IMG/VR virus record: IMGVR_UViG_3300009285_000812
Location: 1 to 46,752 of that record
Reading direction: 5' to 3' (one strand)
Source of the DNA: a virus
Length of the DNA: 46,752 nucleotides
The translations under genes were made by a program, and so were the position numbers. Every line of letters starts with the position of its first letter. Within the stretch, counting starts at the first letter, position 1. Of this stretch, positions 1 to 46,697 are shown one piece after another. The notes beneath the pieces are model-generated. The model was not told the DNA's origin. It saw nothing but the letters and a program-made list of their open reading frames with translations, and did no database searches.

Positions 1-102
1 ACTGACTCCGGTTGGAGTCTGATGAACGAAGTCGGTGTCATCCTGACCTGCGCTCCGGCAGCCAACTTCTTCCACCTCATCGACCTTCGACTCTCCCCGT
101 AA
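1..102 (+). CDS. C-terminal fragment of a virion-like protein
   Basis: An open frame enters from the left edge and stops at TAA (100-102), leaving 33 residues that end FFHLIDLRLSP. The upstream part is outside the window. Because it lies directly before the sugar island, and a capsid-accessory gene closes the other end of the window, I infer another head or decoration protein; the fragment alone does not prove this. Confidence 0.5.
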   Translation, partial: TDSGWSLMNEVGVILTCAPAANFFHLIDLRLSP

Positions 103-164: not shown

Positions 165-869
165 ATTAAAGACATTATCATTTTGGGAATGGGGCCATCC
201 CGCTTCGAGTGTCCCTTTGACTGTGAAACATGGGGCGTCAATAACGGCTACCGGCAGGTTATTCAATTAAACGGCAGATTAGACAAACTGTTCATCTGTC
301 ACAGAGGGCAGGAAAAAGACTGGGAAGATGACGACGTTTTCAACTGGGACGAACTCAATAACTTAAAAGCCGAAATCGTCAGTTTGTTCGATGTTAAGGA
401 AATCAAGCAGAAAACCCGCATCCCATTCCGCACTCTTAAAAAGAAGTTCAAGACTGAGTATTACACCGACACAATCGTTTACATGGTGGCTTACGCACTT
501 CATAAGAACACCACTATCAGAAATGGTCTTCTGAAATTAAAGGAACCGATGCGCTTGAGATTCTACGGCGTGGATATGCACACCCAGGATGAGTACAACA
601 CCGAACGGGCGGGCATAGAATACTTCATTGCTATCGCTAAAACCATAGGCGTAAACGTCTGGATTCACCCTGACTCGGCTCTGTGCAAGACAGACCACGG
701 TGTACCCTACGGATTCTGGAAACTCAATAAGAAAAAGGTTGACCCCCTGAATGTCATGGAACTCCAGAAGACACCCGAAGGCGTCCGTAAACTGTGGGCA
801 ATGGATAAAATCTCAGCTAAAGAAATGGAGGAAATGTTAAAACACCTTGAAACTACGAGAACTGCGTAG
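165..869 (+). CDS. GPS-motif glycosyltransferase-like protein, copy A (probable AUU start)
   Basis: This 234-residue protein is a paralogue of the one at 12246-12992. Both share an N-terminal IIL-(G/A)-MGPSR motif, a central YM-(V/I)-AYALH segment, then YG-(V/C)-DM and a later S-x-LC. The same order (GPS, small-residue helix, G-x-D, late Ser) is found in GT42 sialyltransferases and MptE/DUF115-like proteins. Together with the NeuB- and NeuA-like genes downstream, a sugar-transfer role is plausible but inferred. The first canonical start is TTG at 183, which would delete the strand before the glycine loop. ATT at 165 lies 6 nt after AGGAGA (153-158) and restores alignment with the ATG-started paralogue. 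The stop overlaps the next gene. Confidence 0.65.
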   Translation: MKDIIILGMGPSRFECPFDCETWGVNNGYRQVIQLNGRLDKLFICHRGQEKDWEDDDVFNWDELNNLKAEIVSLFDVKEIKQKTRIPFRTLKKKFKTEYYTDTIVYMVAYALHKNTTIRNGLLKLKEPMRLRFYGVDMHTQDEYNTERAGIEYFIAIAKTIGVNVWIHPDSALCKTDHGVPYGFWKLNKKKVDPLNVMELQKTPEGVRKLWAMDKISAKEMEEMLKHLETTRTA

Positions 870-1299
870 GGAAGATTGGGAACTGGTTTTAGCATGGCGA
901 AACTCACCGCTCATTAACAAGGGCTTTTATTCCCAGTCCAATGGGCATTTAATCCAGTGGGATGAGCATTGTAAATGGATAGAGTCACGCGCTAACTGGA
1001 TGTACTTCATCATCGAACATGAAGGCCGGAGAATCGGCGGTGTGACTTTAGGGCAACTGGATCACTGGTCGCCTGAGATAGGCTACTTCATCGGTGAAGT
1101 CACGCTATGGGGCAAGGGACTGGGTAAGCAAGCTGTCGAAATGGCGATAGCATGGCTCAAGGAAAAGGGTTACAAGTACTGCCACACTACAGTATTAAAT
1201 GACAATATGAGGTCACGGAATCTCTTGGAATCACTTGGATTTACCTATATGGCAGAGGCAAGACCCGGCGAAGTGTGGATGCAGAAATGTGTGGCATAG
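847..1299 (+). CDS. GNAT N-acetyltransferase (RimJ/RimL or PseH-like)
   Basis: A 150-residue single-domain GNAT protein. The N-terminus (MKLREL..EDWELVLAWRN) and the acetyl-CoA loop WGKGLGKQA at about residues 90-98 are typical of the RimJ/RimL group, which includes PseH and LegH, the enzymes that acetylate 4-amino sugars in pseudaminic and legionaminic acid synthesis. Its place between a GPS-motif protein and glmS supports an amino-sugar substrate (inference). Translation probably starts at TTG 847, overlapping the upstream stop by 23 bp, with GGAGG at 828-832 rather far upstream. The 3' end overlaps glmS. Confidence 0.8.
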   Translation: MKLRELRREDWELVLAWRNSPLINKGFYSQSNGHLIQWDEHCKWIESRANWMYFIIEHEGRRIGGVTLGQLDHWSPEIGYFIGEVTLWGKGLGKQAVEMAIAWLKEKGYKYCHTTVLNDNMRSRNLLESLGFTYMAEARPGEVWMQKCVA

Positions 1300-2831
1300 T
1301 CGGCTATATCTCAGACAGGGACGTTGTTCCTTTACTCTTAAAGTCTCTTAAACTCTTGGAATATCGGGGATATGACTCGTCGGGGATAGCTGTAGTGAAC
1401 GGGACGCTTAAAGTAGACAAGTGTATCGGGTCTATCGAGTCTGACCTACATGGCAATCTGGGAATCGGCCATACAAGGTGGGCGACACATGGTAAAGTCA
1501 CTAAGGAAAACGCTCACCCCTTTGTGGATTGTAGTGGAACCATCGCTATCGTCCACAACGGCATTATCGAAAACTATCAGCACCTTAAAGACGATTACCC
1601 CAACCATACCTACACGTCGGAGACAGATTCGGAAACTATCGTCCACCTAATAGAAGAAACCCCCTGTCTGGATTTTGAGGATGAAGTTAGATGTGCTGTC
1701 AGTAATCTACAGGGCAACTTCGCCATCCTTGCCGTTAAAGAGGGCGAGAATCGAATCGTAGCGGCTCGTAGAGGCAATCCCTTATATGTCTCAGATGGTT
1801 GCGCCTCATCCGATAACATTCTAGGCGGACGGTTACTCGATGATAATGAGGTTGTTTCTATCTATCCGGCTGCGGTAAAAGACACCGCAATCGCAGTAAA
1901 TCATACCATGCTTGAGGAAATCCTTGAGCAGGGTGATAAAAAGTGGGAGCTACGGGAAGCCGCACTCGAAGTTTTAAGAGCGAGGGACATAACCTTTATA
2001 GGTTGCGGCAGCTCCAGGTACGCCGCCATCGTTGGCAGGTTCTTCTTCTCGCGGATCGCGGGCGTCTCATGCGATGTCGTTCTGGCCTCAGAGCTACAGA
2101 ACTTTGCGGAGAGCATCAACCGTCATTCACTTGTGATAGCTATCTCTCAAAGCGGTGAAACGGCTGATGTCATTGACGGAGTTCGACTGGCGAGGGAACA
2201 CAAAGCGAAGGTCATCTCCATAATCAACCGGCCTGATTCGCTACTCTCCAGACTTTCAGACATCGTGATACCCATGAACTGCGGGCCGGAACTGGCGGTG
2301 GCGGCTACCAAAAGTTTCACTTCGACATTGTGCATCTTATATCACCTGGCCCATGAGATGGTCGGTAAGACTTGTAATGTGGAACCCTTCATGTCGGACT
2401 GTAAGGAAGTCCTGCAAGGTGACGACGTTTATTTGATAGCTAAAGGAATCAATTATCCGATAGCTTTAGAGGGTGCATTGAAGCTCAAGGAAATCACCTA
2501 CATCCACGCTGAAGCCCTACCCGCCGGTGAACTGAAGCACGGTAGTCTGGCGCTTATCGAGGATGGTACACCGATTATCGCCGTCTGCCCTAGAGACGAA
2601 AACTTCGACGCCTGTATTAATAACCTGATGGAAGCGAAGACAAGGGGTGGATACATCATCGGCATCTCCGACGTTAATCATCCGGTGTTCGATAGGTGGA
2701 TACGGATTCCCAACAGTTCCCCAATGGCCTGTGTTGTTCCCTTGCAGATGATGTCTTATTACACTTCTAAAGCGCGAGGGCTGAATCCAGAGAGGCCGCG
2801 TTCTTTAGCGAAATCGGTCACTGTTAAATGA
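1287..2831 (+). CDS. glmS: Glutamine--fructose-6-phosphate aminotransferase
   Basis: Makes glucosamine-6-phosphate from fructose-6-phosphate and glutamine. ATG 1287 is chosen because it gives MCGIVGY, placing the nucleophilic Cys directly after Met as the Ntn-glutaminase domain requires; GTG 1275 would add four residues. Visible motifs are HTRWATHG, NGIIENY and SETDSE in the glutaminase half, GCGSSRYAA and SQSGETADV in the first SIS domain, and the C-terminal signature ending LAKSVTVK. At 514 residues it is about 90 shorter than usual bacterial GlmS, yet all catalytic signatures are present, so it is probably active. The stop overlaps the next start (ATGA). Confidence 0.95.
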   Translation: MCGIVGYISDRDVVPLLLKSLKLLEYRGYDSSGIAVVNGTLKVDKCIGSIESDLHGNLGIGHTRWATHGKVTKENAHPFVDCSGTIAIVHNGIIENYQHLKDDYPNHTYTSETDSETIVHLIEETPCLDFEDEVRCAVSNLQGNFAILAVKEGENRIVAARRGNPLYVSDGCASSDNILGGRLLDDNEVVSIYPAAVKDTAIAVNHTMLEEILEQGDKKWELREAALEVLRARDITFIGCGSSRYAAIVGRFFFSRIAGVSCDVVLASELQNFAESINRHSLVIAISQSGETADVIDGVRLAREHKAKVISIINRPDSLLSRLSDIVIPMNCGPELAVAATKSFTSTLCILYHLAHEMVGKTCNVEPFMSDCKEVLQGDDVYLIAKGINYPIALEGALKLKEITYIHAEALPAGELKHGSLALIEDGTPIIAVCPRDENFDACINNLMEAKTRGGYIIGISDVNHPVFDRWIRIPNSSPMACVVPLQMMSYYTSKARGLNPERPRSLAKSVTVK

Positions 2832-3514
2832 TTTTACTTATCGGTGGTACTGGCACTCTAGGCAAGGAAATCGCCCGTCTAACTAAATGCAGGGTCTACT
2901 CAAGGAACGAATACTGGCAATGGCTCTGTAAGCAAGAACTCCCTGATAACGAATATGTTATCGGAGATGTGAGGGACTATGACGCACTCAGGGGAGCCGC
3001 CGAAGGATGCGAACAGGCTATTAACTGCGCCGCCCTCAAGCACATTGACCATTGTGACCAGAATCCCTCAGAGGCAATTAAGACTAATATCATCGGGGCG
3101 GAGAACGTTCTTAGACTTCATCTACCGGCAACGCTTGTCTCGACGGATAAAGCGGTATCCCCTGAAGGTCTGTACGGGGCGACTAAACTCGTTGCCGAGC
3201 ATCTATTCCTCCTACATCATCAGAGCGTGGTGCGCCTGCCCAATCTGTACGGTTCCACTGGTTCTGTCATCGAACTGTGGCGAAGACAACACGAACTAGG
3301 GCAACCACTTACCATCACCGATAAGCTGTGTTACAGGTACTTTATCGACACAGTAGAAGCGGCGAAGTTTGTTCTTCAGGCAAAACAAGGTCTTAATATC
3401 CCTCCCTGTCAGGAATACAATATCTGGGACTTATGTGAAAAACTCTATCCTAACGATGAGAAGCGGATTATCGGACTCAGACCGAATGAAAAACTGAGAG
3501 AGGAGTTAAGGTGA
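2828..3514 (+). CDS. NAD(P)-dependent UDP-sugar 4,6-dehydratase, PseB/LegB-like (short form)
   Basis: An extended-SDR protein of 228 residues. It opens with the Rossmann loop GGTGTLGKEIA and then has AALKHIDHCDQNP and TNIIGAENV, the active-site STDKA, and YGATK carrying the catalytic Tyr and Lys. It ends with GLRPNEKLREEL, a signature of PseB/CapD-type dehydratases. Such enzymes open nonulosonic acid pathways by acting on UDP- or GDP-GlcNAc. Typical family members are about 330 residues; here the C-terminal substrate domain is shortened. It overlaps glmS by 4 bp and the next gene by 4 bp. Confidence 0.85.
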   Translation: MILLIGGTGTLGKEIARLTKCRVYSRNEYWQWLCKQELPDNEYVIGDVRDYDALRGAAEGCEQAINCAALKHIDHCDQNPSEAIKTNIIGAENVLRLHLPATLVSTDKAVSPEGLYGATKLVAEHLFLLHHQSVVRLPNLYGSTGSVIELWRRQHELGQPLTITDKLCYRYFIDTVEAAKFVLQAKQGLNIPPCQEYNIWDLCEKLYPNDEKRIIGLRPNEKLREELR

Positions 3515-3717
3515 AAATCAGATTGTGGCTCATTAAGTTGTTGTGTAAACACATAAACTGGGGTGATATTGATTACACAGAAATACCCGAAGGGACAGAG
3601 ATTACAGGGCTTGCGGTCTTGGGTAAAAATGGTCGGATAATCAACAGAACCAAACATACAAATTATATCACCAAAGGGACAGTCTTTACCATCCATTGGG
3701 GATTTGTATGTCTATAA
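3511..3717 (+). CDS. Small hypothetical protein in the sugar island
   Basis: A 68-residue protein starting at GTG 3511 behind AGGAG and overlapping both neighbours. It has a basic N-terminus (MKIRLWLIKLLCKH), then a strand-rich segment with PEGTEITG and HTNYITKGTVFTI. I do not recognise a family. Its place within a run of overlapping genes suggests co-translation with the dehydratase and the NeuB-like enzyme. Confidence 0.6.
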   Translation: MKIRLWLIKLLCKHINWGDIDYTEIPEGTEITGLAVLGKNGRIINRTKHTNYITKGTVFTIHWGFVCL

Positions 3718-4352
3718 TCAGCGAGGTGGGCCAGAACTTCTGCGGCGATATCGACTTAGCCAAGAAGATGATTCTACTGTCAAGGGATAACGGGGCGGGA
3801 TTAGTCAAGTTCCAGCTTTTTGATTCTATGAAACTCTACGGCGAACCCGGTCACAACGAACTATCATTTGAACAAGCTAAAGAACTTTTCGACTTTGGTA
3901 GGGACAATAATATTGAAGTCTTTTTCTCTGTCTTTGATACAAACAGGGTGAGGTGGTGCGAGAAGATTGGGGTCAAGCGATACAAAATCGCCGCAAGGTG
4001 GAACAAAGACGAACTTCTAAGAAGTGCGATCATCTCGACAAACAAACCATGTTATATGTCGTTTGAAGGTGGCTATGCTCCTGTTCCTAGTAACTGGAAA
4101 AAGATGTGGTGTGTATCGAAATACCCTGCGCAACTTTCAGAACTGCATCTCCCTGAACCCTACTTCGGATATTCCGACCACACCGTAGGACTGAGTGCTT
4201 GTAAAGTGGCAATTGCAAGAGGGATGTCCCCTGTAGAAAAGCACTTTTGTGTAGACCATAACACAGGTGTGGACGCCCCGTGGAGTATGACCCCTGACGA
4301 ACTCAGAGAATTAGTTGAATGGGAGAAAACGTGTCAAACAGCGTTGCGGTAA
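3708..4352 (+). CDS. NeuB/SpsE-like nonulosonic acid synthase, TIM-barrel domain only
   Basis: Members of this family condense phosphoenolpyruvate with a six-carbon amino sugar to give sialic, legionaminic or pseudaminic acid. Recognisable segments are SEVGQNF at the N-terminus, KFQLFDS, SVFDTN, FGYSDHTVGLSA and VEKHFCVDHNTGVDAPWSMTPDEL. ATG 3708 is chosen because SEVGQN should lie within the first ten residues. At 214 residues the protein is far shorter than the usual ~340 because the C-terminal SAF (antifreeze-like) domain is absent. That domain closes the active site of the partner subunit in NeuB dimers, so activity of this form is uncertain. It overlaps the cytidylyltransferase gene. Confidence 0.85.
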   Translation: MSIISEVGQNFCGDIDLAKKMILLSRDNGAGLVKFQLFDSMKLYGEPGHNELSFEQAKELFDFGRDNNIEVFFSVFDTNRVRWCEKIGVKRYKIAARWNKDELLRSAIISTNKPCYMSFEGGYAPVPSNWKKMWCVSKYPAQLSELHLPEPYFGYSDHTVGLSACKVAIARGMSPVEKHFCVDHNTGVDAPWSMTPDELRELVEWEKTCQTALR

Positions 4353-4924
4353 TCACTTCACGGTTCAATTCAACAAGATTCCCCGGTAAGGCTTTAGCCC
4401 TCTTAAACAACAAGGAACTCTTAAAGTATCTGGTTGAGACAGTGGAAGCCGCTGGCTTACCGTGTGTCATAGCCACAACTGACACCTCGCCTAAAATCAT
4501 CGAGTTCTGCGTCAGGAACCATATTCAGTGTTCTGTGTCGAATAATGAGGACGATCTTCTTGGTAGAGTGTACTACGCTTCTCTGGGTTACGAGACAGTC
4601 GTTAGGCTCTGGGGGGATGCGCCGTTTGTTTCTCCACAGGTTATCGAGGAGGCTATTTCGGGATACCACGAGACCGGAACAGACTACTTTACCTTCAAGA
4701 ATATGGATACCGGAGAATGTGTTGCCGTTACCTCAAGAGACCTTCTAGGCAAACTCCATCGTACAATAGACGAAGCTAAAGACAGGGAGTGGATACACAC
4801 CTACATGAGCAATCTCCCCGGCTCGGTAACGCGCATGAGGGCTTGTGGCGGGCAGAGAATGTTAATCGACACCCCTGAAGACTTGAATAAGATACGGGAG
4901 CAAGCGTGGGTATCTCTGCTGTAG
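4331..4924 (+). CDS. SpsF/NeuA-like cytidylyltransferase
   Basis: A nucleotide-sugar transferase fold protein of about 197 residues. SRFNSTRFPGKAL near the N-terminus matches the nucleotide-binding loop of acylneuraminate cytidylyltransferases and SpsF. VVRLWGDAPFVSP carries the metal-binding Asp, and EWIHTYM and LIDTPEDL resemble later motifs. The predicted role is activation of a nonulosonic acid as its CMP derivative, following the NeuB-like step. GTG 4331 has GGGAG five bases upstream and is preferred; ATG 4319 is an alternative. The gene begins inside the end of the NeuB-like gene and its own 3' end overlaps the next start. Confidence 0.85.
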   Translation: MSNSVAVITSRFNSTRFPGKALALLNNKELLKYLVETVEAAGLPCVIATTDTSPKIIEFCVRNHIQCSVSNNEDDLLGRVYYASLGYETVVRLWGDAPFVSPQVIEEAISGYHETGTDYFTFKNMDTGECVAVTSRDLLGKLHRTIDEAKDREWIHTYMSNLPGSVTRMRACGGQRMLIDTPEDLNKIREQAWVSLL

Positions 4925-5631
4925 AGTGGGACGAACTCAACGAAAAATCAGAGCAAGGCACAATCTTTTCCTCGACTAAATGGTTAGATTTATTCGGTAA
5001 CTACGAACTAAAAGGGGTTTATAAAAAAGATAATCTAATCGGAGGTATAGCCGACTTCGGAGAAGCCAAACCCTTAACTCCGTTTCAGAGCGTCCTTACC
5101 CTCAAGAACCCACAACAGGTCATGGAGGCGCTGGATGTCAAGTATGTGGTCAATCACTACACCCTACCAGATATCAGACCTTTCCTGTGGCGCGGATATA
5201 AACCACTTGTCCGGTACACGTATATCGTTCGACCTGAATGGGGACTACTTGATAAGGACACCCGTAACCTTGTACGGAAGTACGACTTGCCCATTGGTTC
5301 GGACTTCGGGTATCTGGACGCTCTTTACAGTCTTACCTTTGAACGTAAAGGACTTCGACGACCTATCGACTCAGCTTTCCTAAAAAAAGTCTGCGACATG
5401 GGAACCATCTACACCTGCGACGGGGCCGGAGTGGTTATCATTCGGGACGATAAAAGAGCGTACTACATCATAGGCGCGTCAGACGGCACAGGGACTTCCA
5501 GTTACCTTTTATGGAACGCGATTAAGGATGAAAGAGAGGTTGATCTTGTCGGGGCTAATCAAAAAGACATCGCCAGTTTCAAGAAATCCTTCGGGGGAGA
5601 ACTCAAAGTATACTGCGGAGCCACTTTATAG
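4906..5631 (+). CDS. FemAB/BioF2-like GNAT-fold acyltransferase
   Basis: A 241-residue protein starting at GTG 4906 with GGAG five bases upstream. The C-terminal half has the pattern SSYLLWNAI then DLVGAN and FKKSFGGELKVY, typical of FemAB/CelD-like GNAT proteins found in polysaccharide clusters, where they acylate or aminoacylate sugars or peptidoglycan precursors. A role in decorating the sugar made by this island is inferred. It overlaps the cytidylyltransferase gene by 19 bp and the next gene by about 100 bp. Confidence 0.65.
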   Translation: MGISAVEWDELNEKSEQGTIFSSTKWLDLFGNYELKGVYKKDNLIGGIADFGEAKPLTPFQSVLTLKNPQQVMEALDVKYVVNHYTLPDIRPFLWRGYKPLVRYTYIVRPEWGLLDKDTRNLVRKYDLPIGSDFGYLDALYSLTFERKGLRRPIDSAFLKKVCDMGTIYTCDGAGVVIIRDDKRAYYIIGASDGTGTSSYLLWNAIKDEREVDLVGANQKDIASFKKSFGGELKVYCGATL

Positions 5632-6346
5632 CGCGATTATAGGCTGCGGTAGGATTGGCTGCGAGTTCCCAGACTCCCATTTGAAGGCTTATTTAAACAA
5701 CCCCCAGATTATGCTTATGGGGTTGTGTGATACCGACATCGCCAAAGCGTACAAATACACCGCTAATAATATCAGCGATAATCCCCAAACCTTTACCTCA
5801 ACTCTGATGATGTCTTACGGGAAATTAGACATCCTTTCAATCTGCACTCCGCCTTCTACCCATAGGGAATTAGTCGAAGCCTCTGCGCCTTATGTCAAAG
5901 CCATATGGTTAGAGAAGCCTATAGCTGAAACACTAGAAGATGCCGATGAGATTATTAAGGTCTGTAAGCATTACGGCATTCTCCTACAGGTCAATCACCA
6001 GAGGCGAAGCACTCTCCCGACCTTCAGGTTCTCAAGGGGCTGGCTTAATTCAGGAACTCACGCTATCGACTTACTGAGACAGAGCTTCGGGGAAATCGAA
6101 TCGGCCAATCAGGACTTCGTATATTTCAAGAACGGTACGGTAGTCAGGATTATTTATCAGAATACCACCGAGCCGATCTTTCACTTAGATATGACTCATT
6201 CAGGCGAACCAATGCTTCCCGCCATGCTGGAAAATATTATAGACGCCTTATCCGGTTCTCCGTTACTTTCCCCAGGTGAAGAGGCTCGCGAGACATTAAA
6301 GTGGGTGCTTAAAATGAAAGGGGACTATGAAACATCCTGTAATTGA
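5528..6346 (+). CDS. Gfo/Idh/MocA-family sugar oxidoreductase
   Basis: An NAD(P)-dependent sugar dehydrogenase-like protein. The Rossmann loop IIGCGRIGCEF lies at about residues 37-47, followed by SICTPPSTH and the family signature WLEKPIAET with the catalytic Lys. The second domain is compressed but retains GTHAIDLLRQSFG. The start is unresolved: ATG 5528 has no spaced ribosome-binding site, while TTG 5546 has GAGAGG six bases upstream; both leave about 30 extra residues before the Rossmann strand. Similar oxidoreductases often sit beside SpsF and NeuB genes in surface-sugar loci, so a step in the same pathway is likely. Confidence 0.85.
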   Translation: MKERLILSGLIKKTSPVSRNPSGENSKYTAEPLYSAIIGCGRIGCEFPDSHLKAYLNNPQIMLMGLCDTDIAKAYKYTANNISDNPQTFTSTLMMSYGKLDILSICTPPSTHRELVEASAPYVKAIWLEKPIAETLEDADEIIKVCKHYGILLQVNHQRRSTLPTFRFSRGWLNSGTHAIDLLRQSFGEIESANQDFVYFKNGTVVRIIYQNTTEPIFHLDMTHSGEPMLPAMLENIIDALSGSPLLSPGEEARETLKWVLKMKGDYETSCN

Positions 6347-7439
6347 AGACGGTGATATCAAGGAAGTAAACGAGGTTCTCAGAAGTGGGAACCTTTCGCT
6401 TTTCAGGGGGTGTCCTGCGGGTCAGGACGGCGGGCCTAAAGTACAATCGCTGGAAGCCGCTTTCAGGGACTATTTCAAGGTCAAGTGGGCGGTAGCCTTT
6501 AATTCAGCCACAGCAGCCCTCCACGCCGCTTGTGTGGCTTGTAGGGCGGATATCACTATCGTTTCCCCGTTTACTTTCGTGGCTTCGGCATCATGCGTCC
6601 TTCAAGCGGGTGGTAAGGTCGAGTGGTGTGATATTGATGAAAACATCTTCTGTATGGATGTTATTAAAAATCAGAATGAAATCTGGGCGAGGTCGTCTCG
6701 AACCAACACAATTATTCCTGTTCATTTAATGGGTCATTCGGCGGATATGGACGCTATTATGTGGTTTGCCGAAATAAATGGGCATCTAAGAGTTATTGAG
6801 GACTGCTGTCAGGCCATAGGCGCGGAATACCACGGCAGGAAAGTCGGAACCATCGGAGACTGCGGGGTATTCTCTTTCAATCAGAGTAAGACCGTAAGTA
6901 CCGGCGAAGGCGGGATGCTCATTACAGACAACGACTGGATTGCCCGCGTCGCCAGAGCCGTACGAAACCACGGCGAAGTCTCCGACCCTGAATTAAAGAT
7001 CGTGGGCTACAACTACAGGATGACCGAGTACACCGCTTCGCTGGCTCTAAGCCAGTTCAAACGATTAGATGCAATGAATGACCATCGGAGAGCATTGTGT
7101 CAGTATATGTCACGCCACCTCGATTACGGGCCATTTGAACCACCTATCGAACAAAAAGATTGCAAGCACGTTTACTACACTTACGCTTTAAAATACCACG
7201 GGGATGACCGTGACGAATACCAGCAAAGACTAATTGATAACGGCGTGTTCTTCGGTAGAGGCGGATATGTCAAGCCCTTGTATCATTTACCAATCTTCGG
7301 CATACAAGAGGAAATCTGCCCCGTGGCCGAACGGATGCACCAGAAAGAGATTATGGTTACGGACATATTTAGGCCACCGATGACTTATTCAGACTGTGAC
7401 CATATTTTAGAGGTAATGAAATGCCAGTTGAAAAAATAG
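6327..7439 (+). CDS. DegT/DnrJ/EryC1/StrS PLP-dependent sugar aminotransferase
   Basis: A full-length 370-residue sugar aminotransferase. Motifs include FNSATAALHAA in the PLP phosphate region, PVHLMGHSADMD, VIEDCCQAIGAEYHGRKVG with the conserved Asp, and SFNQSKTVSTGEGGML carrying the Schiff-base Lys. Family members such as PseC and LegC transfer an amino group to the 4-keto sugar made by a PseB/LegB dehydratase, so this probably supplies the amino step of the island. Unlike the other island enzymes it is near normal length. It overlaps both neighbours by about 20 bp. Confidence 0.92.
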   Translation: MKHPVIEDGDIKEVNEVLRSGNLSLFRGCPAGQDGGPKVQSLEAAFRDYFKVKWAVAFNSATAALHAACVACRADITIVSPFTFVASASCVLQAGGKVEWCDIDENIFCMDVIKNQNEIWARSSRTNTIIPVHLMGHSADMDAIMWFAEINGHLRVIEDCCQAIGAEYHGRKVGTIGDCGVFSFNQSKTVSTGEGGMLITDNDWIARVARAVRNHGEVSDPELKIVGYNYRMTEYTASLALSQFKRLDAMNDHRRALCQYMSRHLDYGPFEPPIEQKDCKHVYYTYALKYHGDDRDEYQQRLIDNGVFFGRGGYVKPLYHLPIFGIQEEICPVAERMHQKEIMVTDIFRPPMTYSDCDHILEVMKCQLKK

Positions 7440-7691: not shown

Positions 7692-9017
7692 ATGGCACAA
7701 AAAAGTTTAAGTACTATCGTAGACGATGTTGAAGTTCTTTTAGATGACGGCTCTAACGTTATCTGGAGTTCTACCACCATCATCACACCCGCCGTCCAGT
7801 CGTCCTTGAGGGAAATCTCGATTGTCTACCCTCAGAAGGCCTCTTATTGGGCGACGGCGAGACACTACTCCAAGAACGTCAATGTATCGGGGTTTCTCGG
7901 CCTACTCAAAGTCAATTCAGCGGTCTATCCCGTGTCCACAAGGGACTCTGACGGCGATCTGATAGACGACGGGGATTTCGACAAGAACCGTCGGAACATC
8001 AGGTACACCGACGCCAACACTATACGGTTAGTCATGGACAATGCGCCGAAGGCTTATAAGACCGATTTGCTTACAGGCACAGTAACCTTCACTTCGGGTG
8101 ATACTGCTATCACCGGCGTAGGCACAGCTTTCACTACTGAGTTAAGAGCCGGTAATTACATTATGAAGTCCACCGGAAACGAGTGGTACAGAATCGCCTC
8201 AATCACCTCGGATACCGTTTTAGTTTTAGGGCGGGCTTGTGTAGCAGCGGACACAGGTGCGGACACCGAAGATTTAACTATCTTCTGGCGCAACGACGTA
8301 GTGTTAAGTTGTGATACCGAACAGTACTTAACTTCAATGACCGACATTGCCGGAGCGATTGATCTGGGTACTGGTTACACCTACGGTTCGTGGATGATTC
8401 ATGTTGACGCTTTAGGCACAGGGACGGTTCCGGCTGGAACGCTGTTAAATATCGCTGGTTCGGACACGACCTATAGAGTAACCGCTGATGCTACGATAGG
8501 CACAAACGAATGTGACATCTATATCGAACCCGCCTTACAAGACACAGTTCCCGATAACGCGGTAGTTACTTTCAGGGTCTCATCCCTAACCCCCGCTCTC
8601 GAAAGAATCTTAACTGAAATGGCAGCGGCGGATGTCGTTATCAATCATGCGTCAACGGCGTTTGATGCCCTTGCCTTGATTGCGACAGATATAACCAACG
8701 CCGACACCGAATACAAGTTAGCCAATCCCGAAGTTGACCAGGCGGTGGCTGATGCTGATTCAGGACGGGCTTTGGTTAATTCTGTTCCTGAAGGCGGCGG
8801 GATGAATGATTACCTGAACCTCCTACAAGGGGTTATGACCACGGCTAACGGCTATCTCTCTACGGCGGTAGCGGCGCTTAATCAGGCTAAACTAAGAATC
8901 AACTCAGCCAATCTTACTATTGCTTTAAGGAATCTGGGCCACGAAAGGAAGCAAGCGGCTCTTAGAGAACTCCATAAAATCGCGCCTCATAAATACTTCG
9001 AGAGTTACCAGCGGTGA
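7692..9017 (+). CDS. Neck/adaptor-like virion protein with inserted beta domain
   Basis: A 441-residue protein. The first ~70 residues (LSTIVDDVEVLLDDG..., AVQSSLREI) resemble head-tail adaptor N-termini. A central segment, GTVTFTSGDTAITGVGTAFTTEL, is a beta-rich module common in phage structural proteins. The C-terminal ~120 residues are Ala-rich and helical, ending ALRELHKIAPHKYFESYQR. I infer a connector or tail-completion protein. An AAGG-type site precedes ATG 7692, and the stop overlaps the next GTG. Confidence 0.55.
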   Translation: MAQKSLSTIVDDVEVLLDDGSNVIWSSTTIITPAVQSSLREISIVYPQKASYWATARHYSKNVNVSGFLGLLKVNSAVYPVSTRDSDGDLIDDGDFDKNRRNIRYTDANTIRLVMDNAPKAYKTDLLTGTVTFTSGDTAITGVGTAFTTELRAGNYIMKSTGNEWYRIASITSDTVLVLGRACVAADTGADTEDLTIFWRNDVVLSCDTEQYLTSMTDIAGAIDLGTGYTYGSWMIHVDALGTGTVPAGTLLNIAGSDTTYRVTADATIGTNECDIYIEPALQDTVPDNAVVTFRVSSLTPALERILTEMAAADVVINHASTAFDALALIATDITNADTEYKLANPEVDQAVADADSGRALVNSVPEGGGMNDYLNLLQGVMTTANGYLSTAVAALNQAKLRINSANLTIALRNLGHERKQAALRELHKIAPHKYFESYQR

Positions 9018-12245: not shown

Positions 12246-12992
12246 ATGAGAGAGTTAATTATTCTGGCTATGGGGCCTTCTCGAAAAGAATGTCCCTTCG
12301 ATGCCGAGGTCTGGTCGGTCAATCAAGGATACTGGCAGATTGCCAGGTTAAAGGGCCACGTCAATAAAATCTTTCTGGCCCATGAACAGGTCTATGAAAC
12401 ATGGCCTGACGGCGAGAAACACCAGATGTTCTACTGGGATGACTACAACCAGCTAATAGAAGCCGGGGTTGAAGTCATTAACATTCACAAAATCGAAGAG
12501 CTTCATTCAACCTTATTCCCGATGGATAAAATCGTTGCCAAGTTCGGCTGCGATTACTTCTCGAATACCCTGTGCTACATGATCGCCTACGCCTTACACC
12601 AAGCGACCTACACAAGAAAAGGTAAAGTCATCCTGAAATATCCTTTCAAGTTAAGGTTATACGGTTGCGACATGAGAGACACAGGGGAATACGCGCTGGA
12701 AAAAGGAGGTGTTGAGTACTGGATAGGATACGCGAGAGGTCTTGGAGTTATTGTCGAAAACACTTCCTTCTCGGTGTTATGCAAAACAGTCACTTACGCG
12801 CCATACGGGAAAAAGGACTTCGACCCTACAAAGTTCGCCGTTGGGTCATCGGTAATAATCGGATGGGATGGTACGGTTTATGGTAAGGGAGAATGTCAGG
12901 CAATCGGAAGTAGTTGTAGTTCACCTGATGCGGGGCAAGAAGACCATCCTCCATCATTCAAATCAAGCGAAGGGTTTGTTATCAAACTTTAA
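12246..12992 (+). CDS. GPS-motif glycosyltransferase-like protein, copy B
   Basis: A 248-residue paralogue of the protein at 165-869. Shared motifs are MGPSRKECPFD at residues 9-19, SNTLCYMIAYALHQ, RLYGCDMRDTGEY, GVEYWIGYARGLGV and SVLCKT. It starts at ATG 12246 with GGAGG three bases upstream, confirming where the family N-terminus begins. The last ~45 residues are not shared with copy A. Its location among tail genes suggests that it modifies a surface or virion glycan rather than acting in core metabolism, but no activity is proven. GT42-like or MptE/DUF115-like fold is my reading of the motif order. Confidence 0.65.
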   Translation: MRELIILAMGPSRKECPFDAEVWSVNQGYWQIARLKGHVNKIFLAHEQVYETWPDGEKHQMFYWDDYNQLIEAGVEVINIHKIEELHSTLFPMDKIVAKFGCDYFSNTLCYMIAYALHQATYTRKGKVILKYPFKLRLYGCDMRDTGEYALEKGGVEYWIGYARGLGVIVENTSFSVLCKTVTYAPYGKKDFDPTKFAVGSSVIIGWDGTVYGKGECQAIGSSCSSPDAGQEDHPPSFKSSEGFVIKL

Positions 12993-13028
12993 GCAGAAGA
13001 TAATCAGATACTTTAGAGGAGAAAAACA

Positions 13029-13571
13029 ATGAAAGAAAATGTCAAACTCACAGGCAACGTCATAGGCCACTTGGTAAAAGGCGATTTTGTAAACGGTAAA
13101 TGGATTCCCACAGGCGTTGAACTACACTTCACCGGACACAACATCGTAACTGACGCCGGTGACAGGTTCTACGCCGAACACAACACCACAAAAACTCTAA
13201 CGGTGGACTTCCATGCGGCTACAGGCGGTATCCGGTTAGGTTCCGGTACTACCGGTGGCGGTGATAAGGCTGATACTGACCTTAATACCGTCTGTACCGC
13301 CGGTGGCTACTATACCAGACTGGAATCAGGTTATCCAATGGCGGGCGACACTGAGGCCAACAACACCGGCGACACGACTGATACCGTAACCTGGTACTAC
13401 TACTGGTCTACGACTGGCGGAAGCGCCACCAAGATTAACGAAGGGGCGATTGTGAACTCGGCAACCAATCCGACTGCCGCATTGTCCCACTTTGACTTCG
13501 GCACTACCTTCGATAAAACGACTGCTGACACAATGCAGTTATTCGTCAATCACCTGTTCTCGGGCGTATAG
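13029..13571 (+). CDS. Virion structural protein, unknown class
   Basis: A 180-residue protein beginning MKENVKLTGNVIGHL behind AGAGGAG. It has IVTDAGDRFYAE, a Gly-rich GIRLGSGTTGGGDKADTDL segment and a beta-rich C-terminus. The pattern of an early VTDAG followed by GSGTT resembles small tail-associated proteins, and the placement among tail genes agrees. Function unknown. Confidence 0.5.
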   Translation: MKENVKLTGNVIGHLVKGDFVNGKWIPTGVELHFTGHNIVTDAGDRFYAEHNTTKTLTVDFHAATGGIRLGSGTTGGGDKADTDLNTVCTAGGYYTRLESGYPMAGDTEANNTGDTTDTVTWYYYWSTTGGSATKINEGAIVNSATNPTAALSHFDFGTTFDKTTADTMQLFVNHLFSGV

Positions 13572-13578
13572 GTATAGT

Positions 13579-13627: not shown

Positions 13628-14170
13628 ATGAAGGATTTACCGGAGACATTCTGGGCTTATCTTGCTGGGTTTATTGAGGCTGACGGCTGTATCAATATAT
13701 ATACAGCTAAAAAGGGGAACCATTCCTACCAAGTGGCAAGGGTGGTTGTTTCCCAAATGGAACGAGGGGTACTAGACTCGATTAAATCTGATTTAGATGA
13801 CGGTTGGATTTGCTCTAGTGTTACTAAACGCGGTAAAACAAAAAGTGGTAACATAATGCACAATCTCACTTTTGGTTCTGCTAAATCAAGATTCATCTGT
13901 CAAAAAATCCTACCATACCTTCGGATCAAGCAAGAAAACACTCTCAAGGTAATCAATTGGAAAAAGAAAATCCATGCCCTAGCCGCTGAAGCGAGAGATG
14001 AATTCCCCGAAGTCTGCCGTCTGTACAAAGAAGGCTATTCCCTGCTAGAAGTATCACAGATAACAGGGATTCATGTCTCTACAGTAGGTTATTGGTTACG
14101 GAATCACGGGTTAACACGTACATATAAGGAATCCCAAATCATCCGTCGCCAACGAGAAAAATCCACCTAG
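13628..14170 (+). CDS. LAGLIDADG homing endonuclease with C-terminal HTH
   Basis: A 180-residue free-standing homing endonuclease. YLAGFIEADGCINI at residues ~11-24 is the LAGLIDADG helix with its catalytic acidic residue. Only one such motif is evident, so it should act as a dimer. The C-terminal 50 residues (SLLEVSQITGIHVSTVGYWL) form a helix-turn-helix likely to add DNA contacts. AGGAGGG precedes ATG 13628. It carries its own promoter and terminator, and its codons differ from the flanking tail genes, which suggests recent mobility. I see no intron or intein boundary. Confidence 0.88.
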   Translation: MKDLPETFWAYLAGFIEADGCINIYTAKKGNHSYQVARVVVSQMERGVLDSIKSDLDDGWICSSVTKRGKTKSGNIMHNLTFGSAKSRFICQKILPYLRIKQENTLKVINWKKKIHALAAEARDEFPEVCRLYKEGYSLLEVSQITGIHVSTVGYWLRNHGLTRTYKESQIIRRQREKST

Positions 14171-14193: not shown

Positions 14194-14277
14194 ACCTCTT
14201 CAGCGGGGTCTAGTTCACAAACACTAGCAGTTTTTCTTTAGGGCGGAATGAAGGGGGCTAACAACCCCCTTCTTTTT
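14194..14277 (+). terminator. Rho-independent terminator after the homing endonuclease
   Basis: AAGGGGG (14251-14257) pairs with CCCCCTT (14265-14271) around a 7-nt loop, followed by CTTTTT (14272-14277). Just upstream, short inverted repeats (AGACC...GGTCT and CTAG...CTAG) precede another T-run. The next gene's GGAGG starts immediately after the T-tract. Confidence 0.8.
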
Positions 14278-14286
14278 GGAGGCTTA

Positions 14287-17200: not shown

Positions 17201-17955
17201 TAAACGAAACCATTCAGGTAGTCGAATCCTTCCTCCGCGAGTTGGTTGCTGGCGGCGGTGCAGTTCTCATCAAGGTCATTAATGAGACTGTTCAAATCAC
17301 CCACTCGATTCAGAAAGCGTTAGGTCTTACAAAGACTTCTGATGAGACAGTTCAAGTATCCGAGTCCCTACAGAAAGCCCAAGCGTTAAAGAAGTTCTCC
17401 GATGAGACAGTGGAAGTCACAGAGTCCGTCCTACAAAGAAAAGGGCTAATCAGGAACATCCTGGAAACCATTCAGATCACCGAGACCTTCCAAAAGGCGC
17501 GAGGATTGCTTCATACCATCGGAGAGACTGTCCAGCTAGTCGAAAGCTACGTTAAAGGACTTTCCAGTGGCATCGTCAAGGTAATCGACGAAACCCTCCA
17601 AATCACAGAGACCATTCAGAGAACACGCACTTTACTTCACCAGATTTCCGAGACAGTCCAGACCTCTGAATCCTATCAAAAAGCTCAGAACTTCATTCAC
17701 CAGATAAACGAGACCATCCAGTTAATAGAGAACCTAGTCCGCGAGATGGTCATTCCAGGGGCGATACTCAAAATCATTAACGAGACCATCGAGGCATCAG
17801 AGACCTTACAGAAAGCAATGGGCCTCCTCTACCATGTGAACGAGACGGTTCAGTTAGTTGAGACCAAAATCAAAGAACTAATCATCGCGGCAATATTAAA
17901 GGTCTGGAGTGGTGTCCAATGGATCGTCACTAATCTGAAGATACACAGGTTCTAA
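14287..17955 (+). CDS. Large modular tail fibre with 20-residue repeats
   Basis: A 1222-residue protein starting at ATG 14287 behind GGAGG; the in-frame ATG at 14248 would translate through the terminator and is rejected. Residues ~1-255 form a beta-rich head with HLYIHRGQMADALGN and a strand ending TYPISQVCGVDP. Residues ~256-585 are three tandem ~108-residue modules, two of which carry LGVRA.GSSLER. Residues ~596-750 and ~952-1206 are arrays of a 20-residue repeat (consensus NETVQ.SES.QKA.GLIK). A DNRLRE-like domain at ~753-940 splits the arrays. The protein ends in Trp-rich sequence. I infer a fibre or spike; no enzymatic motif is seen. Confidence 0.7.
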   Translation: MPNVVESTSWGYRYTLEKGDVVEVGDSSVSGFKAHVKIIRGNKWFSLGLAGGTFVPSLNGLTVSFPFNSNISVNIYPVDPCERLPDGGIEYNVILTKKIAQTTITMNVDWSGITWRKIPALNVEYDQALCVDKWPKSTAPFTITPTQISDATGEVLLTRPEYEVNSYEGTAMVPDKSTSEVGVNKDNGQPITFTNLSQTHLYIHRGQMADALGNTAWVEDINLDQTAKTITFTLPRDWIKTATYPISQVCGVDPAYTQTWASWQSTAWGGSDGVWGDYDTTAVVGADNVVLSLVLSNATAGTENSLGVRANGSSLERRVTLHEAEGGGQTHCRMFVQSDANGIIECYHSDVSDADYFYVSGYWTNVTFIEAINSPVSGGSSGSWQTGDNLLSAWAGKVAHILLENREADVANTLGVRAVGSSLERIIVVHEPEAGGYSYLDMLVKVDANADISYYSSDITNASFIASGYFSSEMDFVEKWQALPYGASWHTEDLSAYLDQDGRVCDFMLTHGYVAAIITLGIRDGDDLSTERSLQEHESENGSGTNHQEFTGFSMSAKTNASGLVYARLSSTSNESFLTGYFKPSATGPTAYLKIVNETLQSSEGFQRARTSYKHIAETEQVSESLRHVKAFFKVIDEVIQVSEGFVRSLVTQGEALLKIINETLQISETIHKTQGFIKSISETVQSSETYQKALSLIKAQNETVQLSETHQKSRGLIKYSDETVQTSEGTYTQRGLQRTVNETLEVRGGSTQTIEVRVAASADDCLRRLTTPFFGLNATYSYAGATDAFSQFGSGLRFTNLGIPQGAAISNAYLLFTCRSSSSGTENNTRISAEAVDNAVTFENDGGAFDTRFANHTTARIDWDNEEAWVEESGYQTPSITSVVQEIVNRPSWNPSNSLVIFHEDFDDRSTHAVGCVRYAYSWDSGPSKAPLLHIEYRVEPEKYMGYTKEANETEQVTESHQKSQGFIHQINETIQVVESFLRELVAGGGAVLIKVINETVQITHSIQKALGLTKTSDETVQVSESLQKAQALKKFSDETVEVTESVLQRKGLIRNILETIQITETFQKARGLLHTIGETVQLVESYVKGLSSGIVKVIDETLQITETIQRTRTLLHQISETVQTSESYQKAQNFIHQINETIQLIENLVREMVIPGAILKIINETIEASETLQKAMGLLYHVNETVQLVETKIKELIIAAILKVWSGVQWIVTNLKIHRF
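15052..16038 (+). repeat. Three tandem ~108-codon beta modules in the fibre gene
   Basis: Copies start near 15052, 15409 and 15730. The first two share LGVRA.GSSLER and a following HE.E.GG; the third is more diverged but keeps LGIRDGD and QEHESENG. Each ends in a GY(W/F) strand. They are more AT-rich than the repeat arrays downstream. Confidence 0.65.
16072..16536 (+). repeat. 20-residue (60-bp) repeat array 1
   Basis: Seven full units and one partial unit with core (N/S/D)E(T/V)(V/L)Q.SE. Most units are exactly 20 residues; the third is longer, with FVRSLVTQGEALLKI. The array is cut by the DNRLRE-like domain immediately after NETLEVRGG. Confidence 0.85.
17140..17904 (+). repeat. 20-residue (60-bp) repeat array 2
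   Basis: Twelve further units with the same core. Longer hydrophobic variants (FLRELVAGGGAVLIK, YVKGLSSGIVK, LVREMVIPGAILK, KIKELIIAAILK) recur every two to five units, giving a second-order period. Confidence 0.85.
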
Positions 17956-44487: not shown

Positions 44488-45357
44488 ATGGCCATCCAAA
44501 CCGCAACAAGCGGAAACCTCGAAAACATCTCCAACATCGTTCTGGCTAAATGCCGCTATACGGCAGAATCAGCCGCCCCCTGCAAGAACCTCATCGAACA
44601 CTTCTCTCTCGGTTCGGGGCAGAAACAACTCACCATCCCGAAGTCCGGTTCCATCTCATTTGATAACCTGACTGACGGCATCGACATCGTGGACTCCAAA
44701 GACCTCGCCATCTCGACCACCGACCTGACCACCGGCGAAGTTGGTGGGAAGTTCATCATCACCGACAAACTCGCACGGCAGTTCAACGAGGATGTGTTCT
44801 CTATGATGGGACGCCTCGCCGGTGACGCCCAGGCCCGCAAGGTAGACATGGACATCATCGCCCTGTTCGCCGCCCTTAACACCGGAACCACCCTCGGCGT
44901 ATCGGGCAATCCGTTCGGCCTGACGCAAGTCTTCGGTGTCGCCGCCCATGCCCAGGCTAATCTCTATCCGGCTCCCGTCTACATCGTCGAGCATCCCATT
45001 CCCCTGATGCAACTCCAGAAGTCCGGTGCCGCTGTCGGCGCGACATACTTCGCCGGTCTCATCACCGAGAATGAGGAATTGCTCCGTCGGTTCTTCTCCA
45101 TCAACATCAACGGCATCAATATGTTCTGGGATGCCAACATCGTCGTTGACGCTTCTAGTGACGCGGTAGGCGCTATCTTCTCCAAGAACGCGATGGCCTA
45201 CATCGAGTCTAAGGACTGGGGCGTTGAGCGCGAACGCGACGCTTCTCTACGCGCGTGGGAAGTCGTCTACGTTGCCGACTACGGCGTGTTCGAGATCGAC
45301 GATTCCTACGGCGCTCCCCTGACCTACGCCGCGGCTGCCCTCGCAACTACAACTTAA
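44488..45357 (+). CDS. Major capsid protein (HK97-fold-like)
   Basis: A 289-residue protein directly after the scaffold. GKFIITDKLARQFNEDVFSM, ARKVDMDIIALFAAL and a C-terminal beta region (WEVVYVADYGVFEIDD) follow the pattern of HK97-type coat proteins of the P22/N4-gp56-like group. AAGGAG precedes the ATG. Codons are strongly biased to C-ending forms, as expected for the most abundant protein. A small accessory gene follows. Confidence 0.8.
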   Translation: MAIQTATSGNLENISNIVLAKCRYTAESAAPCKNLIEHFSLGSGQKQLTIPKSGSISFDNLTDGIDIVDSKDLAISTTDLTTGEVGGKFIITDKLARQFNEDVFSMMGRLAGDAQARKVDMDIIALFAALNTGTTLGVSGNPFGLTQVFGVAAHAQANLYPAPVYIVEHPIPLMQLQKSGAAVGATYFAGLITENEELLRRFFSININGINMFWDANIVVDASSDAVGAIFSKNAMAYIESKDWGVERERDASLRAWEVVYVADYGVFEIDDSYGAPLTYAAAALATTT

Positions 45358-45688: not shown

Positions 45689-46684
45689 ATGGCTTTTCCA
45701 AATAGCATCCAACTAACCGAAGAAATGATCAATTCTGCCGCCGCCGCACAGAGGGTACCTCTGGGCACTCGCGGCTTCACCAATGACGGACGGGTGTTCC
45801 GCTACGCTCAGGCTGGCGCTACGGCGCTGACCGCTAACAAACTGGTCATCTCGGCGGCTCAAGGCCCCGCTTCCACTTCTACCGACCAGGTAGCTTATTC
45901 AGCCTACGCTGTCGGCACTACCTATATGAAGCTGTCCCTGTCCACCGTCGCCCTCCCTGTCCTTGCGGCAGACTTCTTCAAGGATGGTTTCCTGGTCTGC
46001 AACTCTACCGATACTACCTACCAACAGGTAGTCCCGATCTATGGCAATGAGGCCCTCGTTTCTTCGACGGCCTTGAATCAACAGACCGGTATCTGGTTGA
46101 AGCAACCCGGTCTCAAGAAAGCCGCCGCGACCTCGACTGGTTGTTTCAAGCTGGTGCAGAATCCCTACAAGGGTGTGGTGGTTTCAACTGACGCCAACGG
46201 CCCCGGTATGCCGATGGGTGTTACCCCGTGTGCTGTCACCGCCTCCTACTATTTCTGGGTACAAACCTGGGGGCCGTGTCTGGCCCATGCCGGTGAGGGT
46301 ATCCGCGCTTCCATCGACAAGCAACCCGGCGCTCGTGTCGGCTGGTCTACCGGTTCCACAGGTGGCGTCTGCGCCCCGAAGGGAACAGCTACCGCCGCCG
46401 ACAACATCAACCGGCTCATCTACTTCGGGGACCACGCCGACACCGTACCGTCGGTCACCGACTACGTCGCTGGCACCCTCTTCGGCGCGCAGTATCTCGA
46501 TGTGAACACCGAGATCACCCCCCGCGACGCCCAGGACGACAAGTGGGGCGTCGCCCAGGTCGGGCTGGTGGACTTCGCCAACAGCGGGTTCCCCAAGACC
46601 TACTCCATCAACCAGAACGGGGAGCACAAGGACAACTTGTTCCACGCGGGCACCAATAAAGCACACCCACATGCACAGGGTTAA
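45689..46684 (+). CDS. Head decoration/accessory structural protein
   Basis: A 331-residue Ala/Thr/Gly-rich, beta-predicted protein (LTEEMINSAAAAQRVPLGTRG, FRYAQAGATALTANKLV). Placement after the capsid gene and similarly C-biased codons suggest an abundant virion component such as a decoration protein. It ends HPHAQG. The fragment at 1-102 may be a similar kind of protein at the far side of the contig break (inference). AAGGAG precedes the start. Confidence 0.65.
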   Translation: MAFPNSIQLTEEMINSAAAAQRVPLGTRGFTNDGRVFRYAQAGATALTANKLVISAAQGPASTSTDQVAYSAYAVGTTYMKLSLSTVALPVLAADFFKDGFLVCNSTDTTYQQVVPIYGNEALVSSTALNQQTGIWLKQPGLKKAAATSTGCFKLVQNPYKGVVVSTDANGPGMPMGVTPCAVTASYYFWVQTWGPCLAHAGEGIRASIDKQPGARVGWSTGSTGGVCAPKGTATAADNINRLIYFGDHADTVPSVTDYVAGTLFGAQYLDVNTEITPRDAQDDKWGVAQVGLVDFANSGFPKTYSINQNGEHKDNLFHAGTNKAHPHAQG

Positions 46685-46697
46685 GGTTGTGGGATAA

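Follow-up and report, generated by a model that had tools for sequence, protein, structure and literature searches.

A phage gene island predicted to make, activate and transfer a nonulosonic acid

The virus record IMGVR_UViG_3300009285_000812, which stems from an uncultured tailed virus and was analysed over its entire length of 46,752 bases (the window below), carries nine overlapping genes of amino-sugar type at positions 165-7439, and the question raised by this locus is which sugar they would serve to make and where it would be put. We consider it fairly probable, at roughly 0.6, that the genes form a unit which serves the phage to 'make, activate and transfer' an unusual nonulosonic acid (NulO). 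The evidence consists of the family-level identities and the order of the genes, the purifying selection acting on them, the retained active-site residues of the synthase NeuB, and the fold match and NeuB association of the GPS-motif proteins (GPS).

A nine-gene island, probably for nonulosonate-type synthesis

All nine open reading frames (ORFs) lie on the + strand and were found where a sequence-only reading of this DNA had placed them when it proposed a nonulosonate-type island; positions, strand and near-continuity were confirmed. Successive genes overlap by 4 to 104 bases once an ORF of 68 amino acids missing from that reading (3511..3717, +, from the ORF list, function unassigned) is counted, the value of 104 hinging on the start chosen for the Gfo gene. 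The 68-residue ORF spans the 193-base gap between the PseB-like and NeuB genes and is not present in the sister phage described below, whose matching interval leaves too little room for it.

In the pathway that we infer, for substrates and product as for donor use, timing and acceptor, a shortened GlmS-like glutamine--fructose-6-phosphate transaminase of 514 amino acids (1287..2831; SIS 8.4e-46) would boost the amino-sugar supply. It passes the TIGR01135 cut-off (486.9 versus 418.05 bits), has an N-terminal cysteine (MCGI start) and carries the motifs MCGI, HTRWATHG, HNGI, ETDSE and GELKHG. GlmS matches were obtained in 21 of 50,697 phage records, with 33-36% identity among the 12 matches listed, at least two of which are Salmonella assemblies. 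A PseB-like 4,6-dehydratase for N-acetylglucosamine linked to uridine diphosphate (UDP-GlcNAc), 228 amino acids long (2828..3514; Polysacc_synt_2 8.4e-44) and with a T-x9-Y-x3-K triad at residue 106, would yield a UDP-4-keto-6-deoxy sugar. This sugar would be aminated at C4 by a DegT/PseC-like pyridoxal phosphate-dependent aminotransferase (6327..7439; DegT_DnrJ_EryC1 3.8e-76; motif FSFNQSK) and then acylated by a PseH-like GNAT N-acetyltransferase (847..1299; Pfam Acetyltransf_3 1.9e-19; MJ1062 in the PDB, 2.2e-31), for which a search of the phage records with an E limit of 1e-5 gave no match.

After removal of UDP, by the host or by an unrecognised enzyme, a short NeuB/PseI-like nonulosonate synthase of 214 amino acids, comprising the barrel only (3708..4352; Pfam NeuB 1.4e-27), would join the sugar with phosphoenolpyruvate (PEP), and an SpsF/KdsB-like cytidylyltransferase (4319..4924; CTP_transf_3 3.8e-19) would convert the product to its cytidine monophosphate (CMP) form. 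The latter carries the motifs RFNSTRFPGK and GDAP; R..S.R.PGK together with GD is what we take to be the signature of CMP-nonulosonate cytidylyltransferases. Tailoring of the sugar would fall to a Gfo/Idh/MocA oxidoreductase (5528..6346; GFO_IDH_MocA 6.2e-17 over residues 36-157), the homologous part of which probably begins near 5600 and which has GCGRIG, EKP and HAID motifs, and to a putative FemAB/GNAT-like acyl- or aminoacyltransferase (4906..5631). This last label stands without a profile match in Pfam, NCBIfam or PHROG, the AlphaFold model of the protein failed (predicted local distance difference test, pLDDT, 32.6) and its best PDB sequence match is non-significant (E 0.2). PHROG matches were also lacking for the NeuB, SpsF-like and Gfo proteins. 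Finally GPS1 (165..869), a predicted CMP-nonulosonate transferase, would move the sugar onto a structural protein of the phage or, with lower probability, onto a host surface glycan. Its start codon is either ATT at 165, after AGGAG, or TTG at 183. A second copy of the predicted transferase, GPS2, 40% identical to GPS1, lies outside the island (12255..12992, +; the ORF opens at 12216) and matches the GPS profile, in which it is itself included, at 1.5e-101.

The same nine genes, in identical order and behind the capsid gene and its two followers, are found in a sister phage (G001, IMGVR_UViG_3300009285_000697; 47,057 bases), whose 77-base end repeat indicates a circular genome. The ratio of nonsynonymous to synonymous divergence (dN/dS) between the two phages, from simple Nei-Gojobori counts with dS close to saturation for some genes, was 0.04 for GPS1, 0.13 for GNAT, 0.10 for GlmS, 0.12 for PseB, 0.09 for NeuB, 0.10 for SpsF, 0.10 for the FemAB-like protein, 0.16 for Gfo and 0.10 for DegT, as compared with 0.10 for GPS2 and 0.06 for the capsid protein. 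Purifying selection hence acts on all nine island genes, and chance ORFs or decay were ruled out by this range of 0.04-0.16. That the genes do nothing for the phage, being mere passengers or acquisitions in decay, is a reading already disfavoured and very improbable: divergence is patchy and some enzymes are shortened, as such cargo might be, but the low ratios, the intact motifs and the gene order kept in a second phage all speak against it. The patchiness itself separates GPS1, GlmS, PseB, SpsF and the FemAB-like gene (dS 0.36-0.69) from GNAT, NeuB, Gfo, DegT and GPS2 (dS 1.8-2.8), with the capsid gene at 1.0, and in 40-codon windows the shifts also fall within genes. To judge by these alignments, the patchwork is what recombination would leave.

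NeuB chemistry, a predicted transferase and a slot behind the capsid gene

Residues of the window NeuB were mapped to 1xuu by means of a 19-sequence profile, and 1xuu numbering is used throughout. The protein keeps the PEP and metal residues E25, K53, Q55, K129, Y186, S213, H215, E234, H236 and D247. In 103 viral NeuB-like ORFs, taken from the window and 84 loci and including that of the window, these residues are conserved in 100, 102, 100, 102, 98, 100, 99, 101, 99 and 96 cases, respectively. The best PDB match is 6ncs, a 290-residue sequence named sialic acid synthetase. Both the NeuB-like and the SpsF-like protein belong to the families that the sequence-only reading had given them, and their catalytic residues are present. 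IMG/VR contains many viral relatives of NeuB (396 among 578 candidate stretches), and the window NeuB used alone matched 3 of the 50,697 phage records.

The transfer step is proposed from a structural model and from gene neighbourhood. An AlphaFold2 model of GPS, a single domain of about 235 amino acids, was built from 7 sequences with a mean pLDDT of 71.8; ten-residue blocks reach 77-90 at residues 1-40, 61-80, 101-140 and 151-170, and 45-63 past residue 170. VIA-align 2 was run on the top 1000 matches from Foldseek, where rows under Z 8 may represent common folds. Its top match is Maf (5mu5; Z 11.8, 154 residues, 2.8 Å), and matches were also obtained to CstII (Z 9.3, 152 residues), to another bacterial sialyltransferase (9.2) and to mammalian sialyltransferases (5.6-7.7). 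The central domain of Maf resembles CstII, according to a passage of PMC11339370. On the basis of this model we regard GPS as a predicted CMP-nonulosonate transferase with a Maf/CstII-type fold. Residues G10, N26, D137 and E152, among others, are invariant over ten GPS proteins.

The association of GPS with NeuB was tested with family-built profiles and flanks of up to 6 kb around the best 80 of 396 NeuB relatives (896 kb), the control being the best 80 of 100 loci fetched with the cytosine methylase of the window (808 kb). GPS occurred close to NeuB in 12 of the 80 loci and in none of the 80 controls (Fisher p 3e-4). When our own three family loci were dropped, the counts were 9 of 77 and 0 of 80 (p 0.0013); both p-values are too small since near-duplicate loci are present. 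Other genes of the set were distributed as follows between NeuB and control loci: PseB 33 and 1, DegT 34 and 0, NeuA 41 and 0, SpsF 17 and 0, WbuX-like 11 and 0, GNAT 8 and 0, Gfo 3 and 0, GlmS 1 and 0. With GPS1 alone as tblastn query, 11 of the 80 NeuB loci were matched and 1 of the 50,697 phage records, a Microcystis phage that was also the single record matched by a distant GPS (L060). In 50 whole NeuB-bearing virus records (46 of the 80 from the NeuB scan, G000 and three family records; 5.6 to 206 kb, many of them fragments) GPS was present in 15, among them 11 of the 46, though not always near NeuB. Fold match and neighbourhood together support the transfer role that had been suggested as possible for GPS.

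The island occupies a defined position in the genome. Window base 1 runs on from a gene starting at 45689, from which it follows that the record is a circularly permuted, nearly complete genome. Read in this way, the sequence-only placement of the island between head and tail genes holds: upstream lies gene 45689, itself behind the major capsid gene (44488..45357, +; PHROG 267, 1.6e-8), and next after the island comes a large gene (7692-9017), part of which matches tail-fibre PHROGs (best 7.8e-11, residues 128-182). Gene 45689 (45689..46684, +) encodes a conserved protein, gp45689, which is a candidate virion component and whose real 3' end is probably at window 1-102. The last ~340 bases of the window (46412-46752) do not match the sister phage, the match ending where base 1 continues the gene; compared with 1-102, this stretch has the look of a branch in the assembly or of an alternative end to gene 45689.

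With the capsid gene as anchor, the slot was compared over 14 records with this capsid type, namely the window, G001, the eight loci L008-L015, L020-L022 and L110. A gp45689 homologue stands behind the capsid gene in all 14 (37% identity over 197 columns between the window and L009), while within the stretches compared GPS is found in nine and NeuB in eight. All eight NeuB carriers have GPS. Since L020, L021, L022 and L110 were fetched with GPS queries, their GPS is not counted as evidence; L022 came from the NeuB scan as well (as L031), and the fair count, leaving out L020, L021 and L110, is five of five. A CMP transferase is present in seven of the eight, including L013 (CTP_transf_3 6.6e-25, no ATG, GTG or TTG near the 5' end), and the eighth, L020, stops 183 bases past NeuB. 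In all eight the set sits behind the capsid gene and shares its strand, which suggests late expression; the island would probably be expressed with the late structural genes.

The composition of the set varies. L022 has GNAT, GPS, PseB, NeuB, SpsF, a WbuX N-acetyl sugar amidotransferase (285.9 bits, cut-off 203.2), Gfo and DegT, and L009 has a hexapeptide acyltransferase, GPS, a PseF-like CMP transferase, PseB, NeuB and DegT. Neither PseB nor DegT was seen within the stretches compared in L021 (NeuA, NeuB, a polysaccharide pyruvyl transferase at 1.3e-22, and GPS) and L013 (NeuA, a radical SAM protein, NeuB, a cupin and GPS). Of the 14 records, only the window and G001 were seen to carry GlmS and the FemAB-like gene. 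As to the six records without NeuB in the stretch compared, the contigs of L008, L014 and L015 end soon past the capsid region, L008 having GPS and L015 GNAT, and L010 and L011 have none of the genes of the set within the stretch compared. L012 carries in the same slot (12303-13577) a fusion of a glycosyltransferase and a methyltransferase (Glyco_transf_21 24.1 bits, cut-off 21.7; Methyltransf_31 1.7e-14), and the slot may therefore hold sugar genes of several kinds.

Points against the reading and the rival explanations

Several observations weigh against a complete make, activate and transfer unit. To begin with the early enzymes, the NCBIfam scores for PseB (5.8e-45; 153.6 bits, cut-off 407.75), PseC (3.1e-67; 227.1 bits, cut-off 423.5) and PseH (1.7e-16; 60.7 bits, cut-off 93.1) all lie below the curated cut-offs. 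A legionaminic or GDP-type route was rejected, the LegB (5.5e-10) and LegC (6.2e-48) profiles scoring lower than PseB and PseC. The dehydratase, transaminase and acetyltransferase profiles point to a pseudaminic-type (Pse) rather than a legionaminic (Leg) route; none of these profiles passes its cut-off. Of the sialic/legionaminic-type label first given to the island, the nonulosonate part is supported, and the legionaminic part is disfavoured by the profile scores. For the SpsF-like protein the best NCBIfam match is the KdsB subfamily (2.7e-14, under the cut-off), not NeuA or PseF.

Comparison with known systems gives a similar picture. In the legionaminic acid pathway of the Bacillus subtilis sps genes, SpsC is the DegT enzyme and SpsD the GNAT enzyme. 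The pathway consists of SpsM (the 4,6-dehydratase), C, D, G, E and F and has a T-x9-[MY]-x3-K triad, as far as given in an excerpt of PMC7439481. SpsM, SpsC, SpsD, SpsE and SpsF have counterparts in the island, and the triad is common to both. In contrast to the sps system, the island has no detected SpsG counterpart, its NeuB lacks the C-terminal domain, GlmS, Gfo/Idh/MocA, FemAB-like and GPS proteins are added, and the whole is phage-borne and placed behind a capsid gene. The PseB-C-H-G-I-F pathway of Helicobacter and Campylobacter provides the best NCBIfam match for the island dehydratase, transaminase and acetyltransferase, but besides the scores under the cut-offs the island differs in that PseG was not found, the CMP transferase is KdsB/SpsF-like, and NeuB has an arginine at the site of the phenylalanine typical of Pse synthases (PMC7371886, in part). 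The pathway resembles the sps or Pse routes but is not a complete Pse or Leg pathway by these tests of membership.

The synthase raises points of its own. The window NeuB has Arg97-Trp98 at NmeNeuB positions 133-134 and not the canonical Gly/Phe133 and Glu134, tryptophan thus replacing E134; the pocket motif reads KIAARW, as against KIGSGE in 1xuu and KIASFE in the pseudaminic acid synthase 8h2c. The antifreeze-like lid domain with Arg314 is absent, the protein ending at 214 amino acids, which leaves 10 residues at and past aligned position 205, and 65 of the 103 viral ORFs have fewer than 40 residues beyond this position. In NmeNeuB the lid-domain Arg314 is essential and its Ala mutant inactive, as stated in the portion of PMC6795526 available. 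An extract from PMC7371886 describes NeuB active sites as conserved on the PEP side and variable on the sugar side, with position 132 (133 by the present alignment, an offset of one residue) being Gly in neuraminic acid (Neu) and Leg synthases and Phe in Pse synthases. Judging from these residues, the chemistry of the window NeuB looks kept and its sugar recognition changed.

A further point is that no hydrolase gene is recognisable in the island or elsewhere in the record, as the sequence-only reading had remarked for NeuC-, LegG- and PseG-like enzymes; a non-homologous enzyme is possible. At E up to 1, neither PseG (TIGR03590) nor Epimerase_2 (PF02350, which we take to be the family of NeuC/LegG-type hydrolysing epimerases) was detected in any of seven family records, of which G001 is circular and the rest were taken as linear (16 to 47 kb, several of them fragments). 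Of 14 control genomes, 10 matched PseG, 2 of them above the cut-off, and 11 matched Epimerase_2, all above it. The 50 NeuB-bearing virus records yielded PseG in one, under the cut-off (5 of 14 control genomes at that limit), and Epimerase_2 in seven, four over the cut-off. Among viral NeuB sets, a good many of them fragments, the lack is hence common, and in the seven family records it looks systematic; an 'incomplete or partly host-supplied' pathway, as first proposed, may be too narrow a description.

The altered pocket, the missing lid, the missing hydrolase and the KdsB-like CMP transferase speak for a reading in which the NeuB-like enzyme takes a different aldehyde and gives a new CMP-ulosonic acid that is not Pse, Leg or Neu, and for which a UDP-sugar hydrolase would be unneeded. 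We regard this as unlikely, though worth keeping in view: the accompanying PseB, DegT and GNAT genes suggest a 6-deoxy-diamino hexose, and glutamate is kept at position 134 in only 27 of the 103 viral NeuB ORFs, so that its replacement may be ordinary drift.

The predicted transferase is open to another interpretation, namely that GPS is a pyrophosphokinase-like or nucleotide-binding protein which takes no part in sugar transfer, the CMP-sugar being used by host transferases. GPS has no sequence match to any transferase family: GPS1 gave no Pfam match (Maf_flag10 and CST-I included) at E up to 1 and no NCBIfam match, and a weak PHROG match leads to a family of unknown function (E 0.0015). Among ten relatives of GPS, CST-I appeared in L029 alone (E 0.058, under the cut-off), no Pfam match was under E 0.02, and a PHROGs scan gave no match. 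Foldseek matches of the model to the PDB are weak, the best being thiamin pyrophosphokinase (E 1.9e-3), with Maf at rank 19 (E 0.18). By VIA-align score, MptE-type HPPK (Z 10.9) lies less than 1 below Maf and so ties with it, and SteA (10.0) and thiamin pyrophosphokinase (9.4) outrank CstII; matching viral models bear names including DUF115, MptE-like and GT29. Unlike Maf and GT42 CstII, with which it has the predicted fold in common, GPS is a single domain, and no histidine is invariant over the ten GPS proteins aligned, whereas CstII relies on His188 (PMC4202792, in part). GPS also occurs without NeuB within the stretches compared in L025-L029, and in the Microcystis phage the annotated stretch includes a sugar O-methyltransferase and no gene for NulO synthesis. 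The association of GPS with NeuB and CMP transferases, and the sialyltransferase matches, CstII included (Z 5.6-9.3), speak for transfer, and we hold the kinase-like interpretation to be somewhat less likely still than a new ulosonic acid.

Where the sugar would be attached is the last point to be weighed. Glycosylation of the virion is a prediction of the preferred reading. The sugar could instead remodel the host surface (lipopolysaccharide, capsule, S-layer or pilin) and alter receptors against superinfection; this alternative differs from our preferred explanation in the acceptor alone, and its odds, which we consider low, are not exclusive of it. Acinetobacter phage O-acetyltransferases are reportedly phage-encoded nonulosonate enzymes. 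Prophage-borne EpaA/EpaB, as described in part of PMC12053666, convert the pseudaminic acid of the Acinetobacter capsule and so provide a precedent for action on the host surface. Both, like the island, are phage-encoded, but they act on host-made sugar, while the window phage carries synthase and activation genes. The lack of a hydrolase and the varied cassettes also suggest reliance on host sugar metabolism. On the other hand, the set lies among structural genes in 8 of 8 family records carrying it, and the window genes scanned (part of the ORFs) included neither an integrase nor a glycosyltransferase of membrane or lipid-carrier type. Glycosylated mycobacteriophage virions have been described (Freeman 2023, as cited in passages of PMC12619734 and PMC11256854). 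The placement among structural genes and this precedent lead us, by analogy, to favour the virion over the host surface as the candidate acceptor.

The surrounding genome and the meaning of the island

Other PHROG matches in the window were to a terminase and a DnaB-like helicase, in addition to the major capsid and partial tail-fibre matches, and a DnaG zinc ribbon and a cytosine-5 methylase are also encoded. No tRNA and no Rfam match was found. A virion-type protein of 2,086 amino acids with an LPD38 domain (2e-47) is located at 37723-43983, and a probable fibre protein of 1,235 amino acids, with many NETVQ-x-SE-type repeats by eye and a similar protein in the sister phage, at 14248-17955. 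A 12-base tandem array (25184-25408; 18.8 copies, 90% matches) lies within an ORF of 264 amino acids (24996-25790, -) and codes for repeated Ala-Ser-Val-Trp/Arg/Gly. A LAGLIDADG endonuclease gene (13628-14170; Pfam 2.5e-6) has, by eye, similar ORFs near the capsid genes of L022 (2812-3288) and L110 (1099-1680). Directly ahead of GPS1 there is an 8-pair hairpin (120-143) followed by ACTATTTT. Promoter and terminator scans gave no excess over shuffles, terminator-like sites being no commoner in the region than in shuffled sequence, and the hairpin is accordingly a suggestion only.

In genome collections a single GPS match was obtained, on a 6.85-kb contig (L110, JAOZHP010000058.1) of a Bathyarchaeota metagenome-assembled genome (MAG). 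The contig has a run of capsid, GPS, NeuA, PseB and NeuB genes as in the virus family. Its presence there may point to a host among the archaea or result from an error in binning; among 256 genomes of its class the same MAG alone matched, and the match may for this reason be binning noise.

Some elements of this picture have been known before. NeuB genes are common in metagenomic viruses, and the NeuB-family gene name pseI appears among the table abbreviations in the part of a marine-phage review seen (PMC6359870); what is given there is the gene name alone, as compared with a pathway including a transferase in the window. Among the matches listed from open-licence papers, none described a complete nonulosonate pathway carried by a phage. 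New are the fixed slot, the lid-free NeuB with an altered pocket, the systematic lack of a hydrolase, and the link to a protein family with a predicted transferase fold. A wider proposal, which we put forward as speculation with the odds clearly against it, is that a lineage of tailed viruses holds an exchangeable cassette in a fixed slot behind the capsid gene, with a core of lidless NeuB, CMP transferase and the single-domain GPS family. Such viruses would put ulosonic acids not known from cells on their own virions, and cassette and within-gene recombination would vary the sugar from phage to phage.

If the proposed pathway is correct, viruses themselves would both produce a sialic-acid-like sugar and attach it. 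This would explain how charge, receptor interaction or recognition is altered by some phages, and would provide small lid-free NeuB enzymes as well as a minimal nonulosonate transferase. The lack of a hydrolase raises the question which sugar the window NeuB accepts, and the link between GPS and NeuB gives a family of unassigned proteins a testable function.

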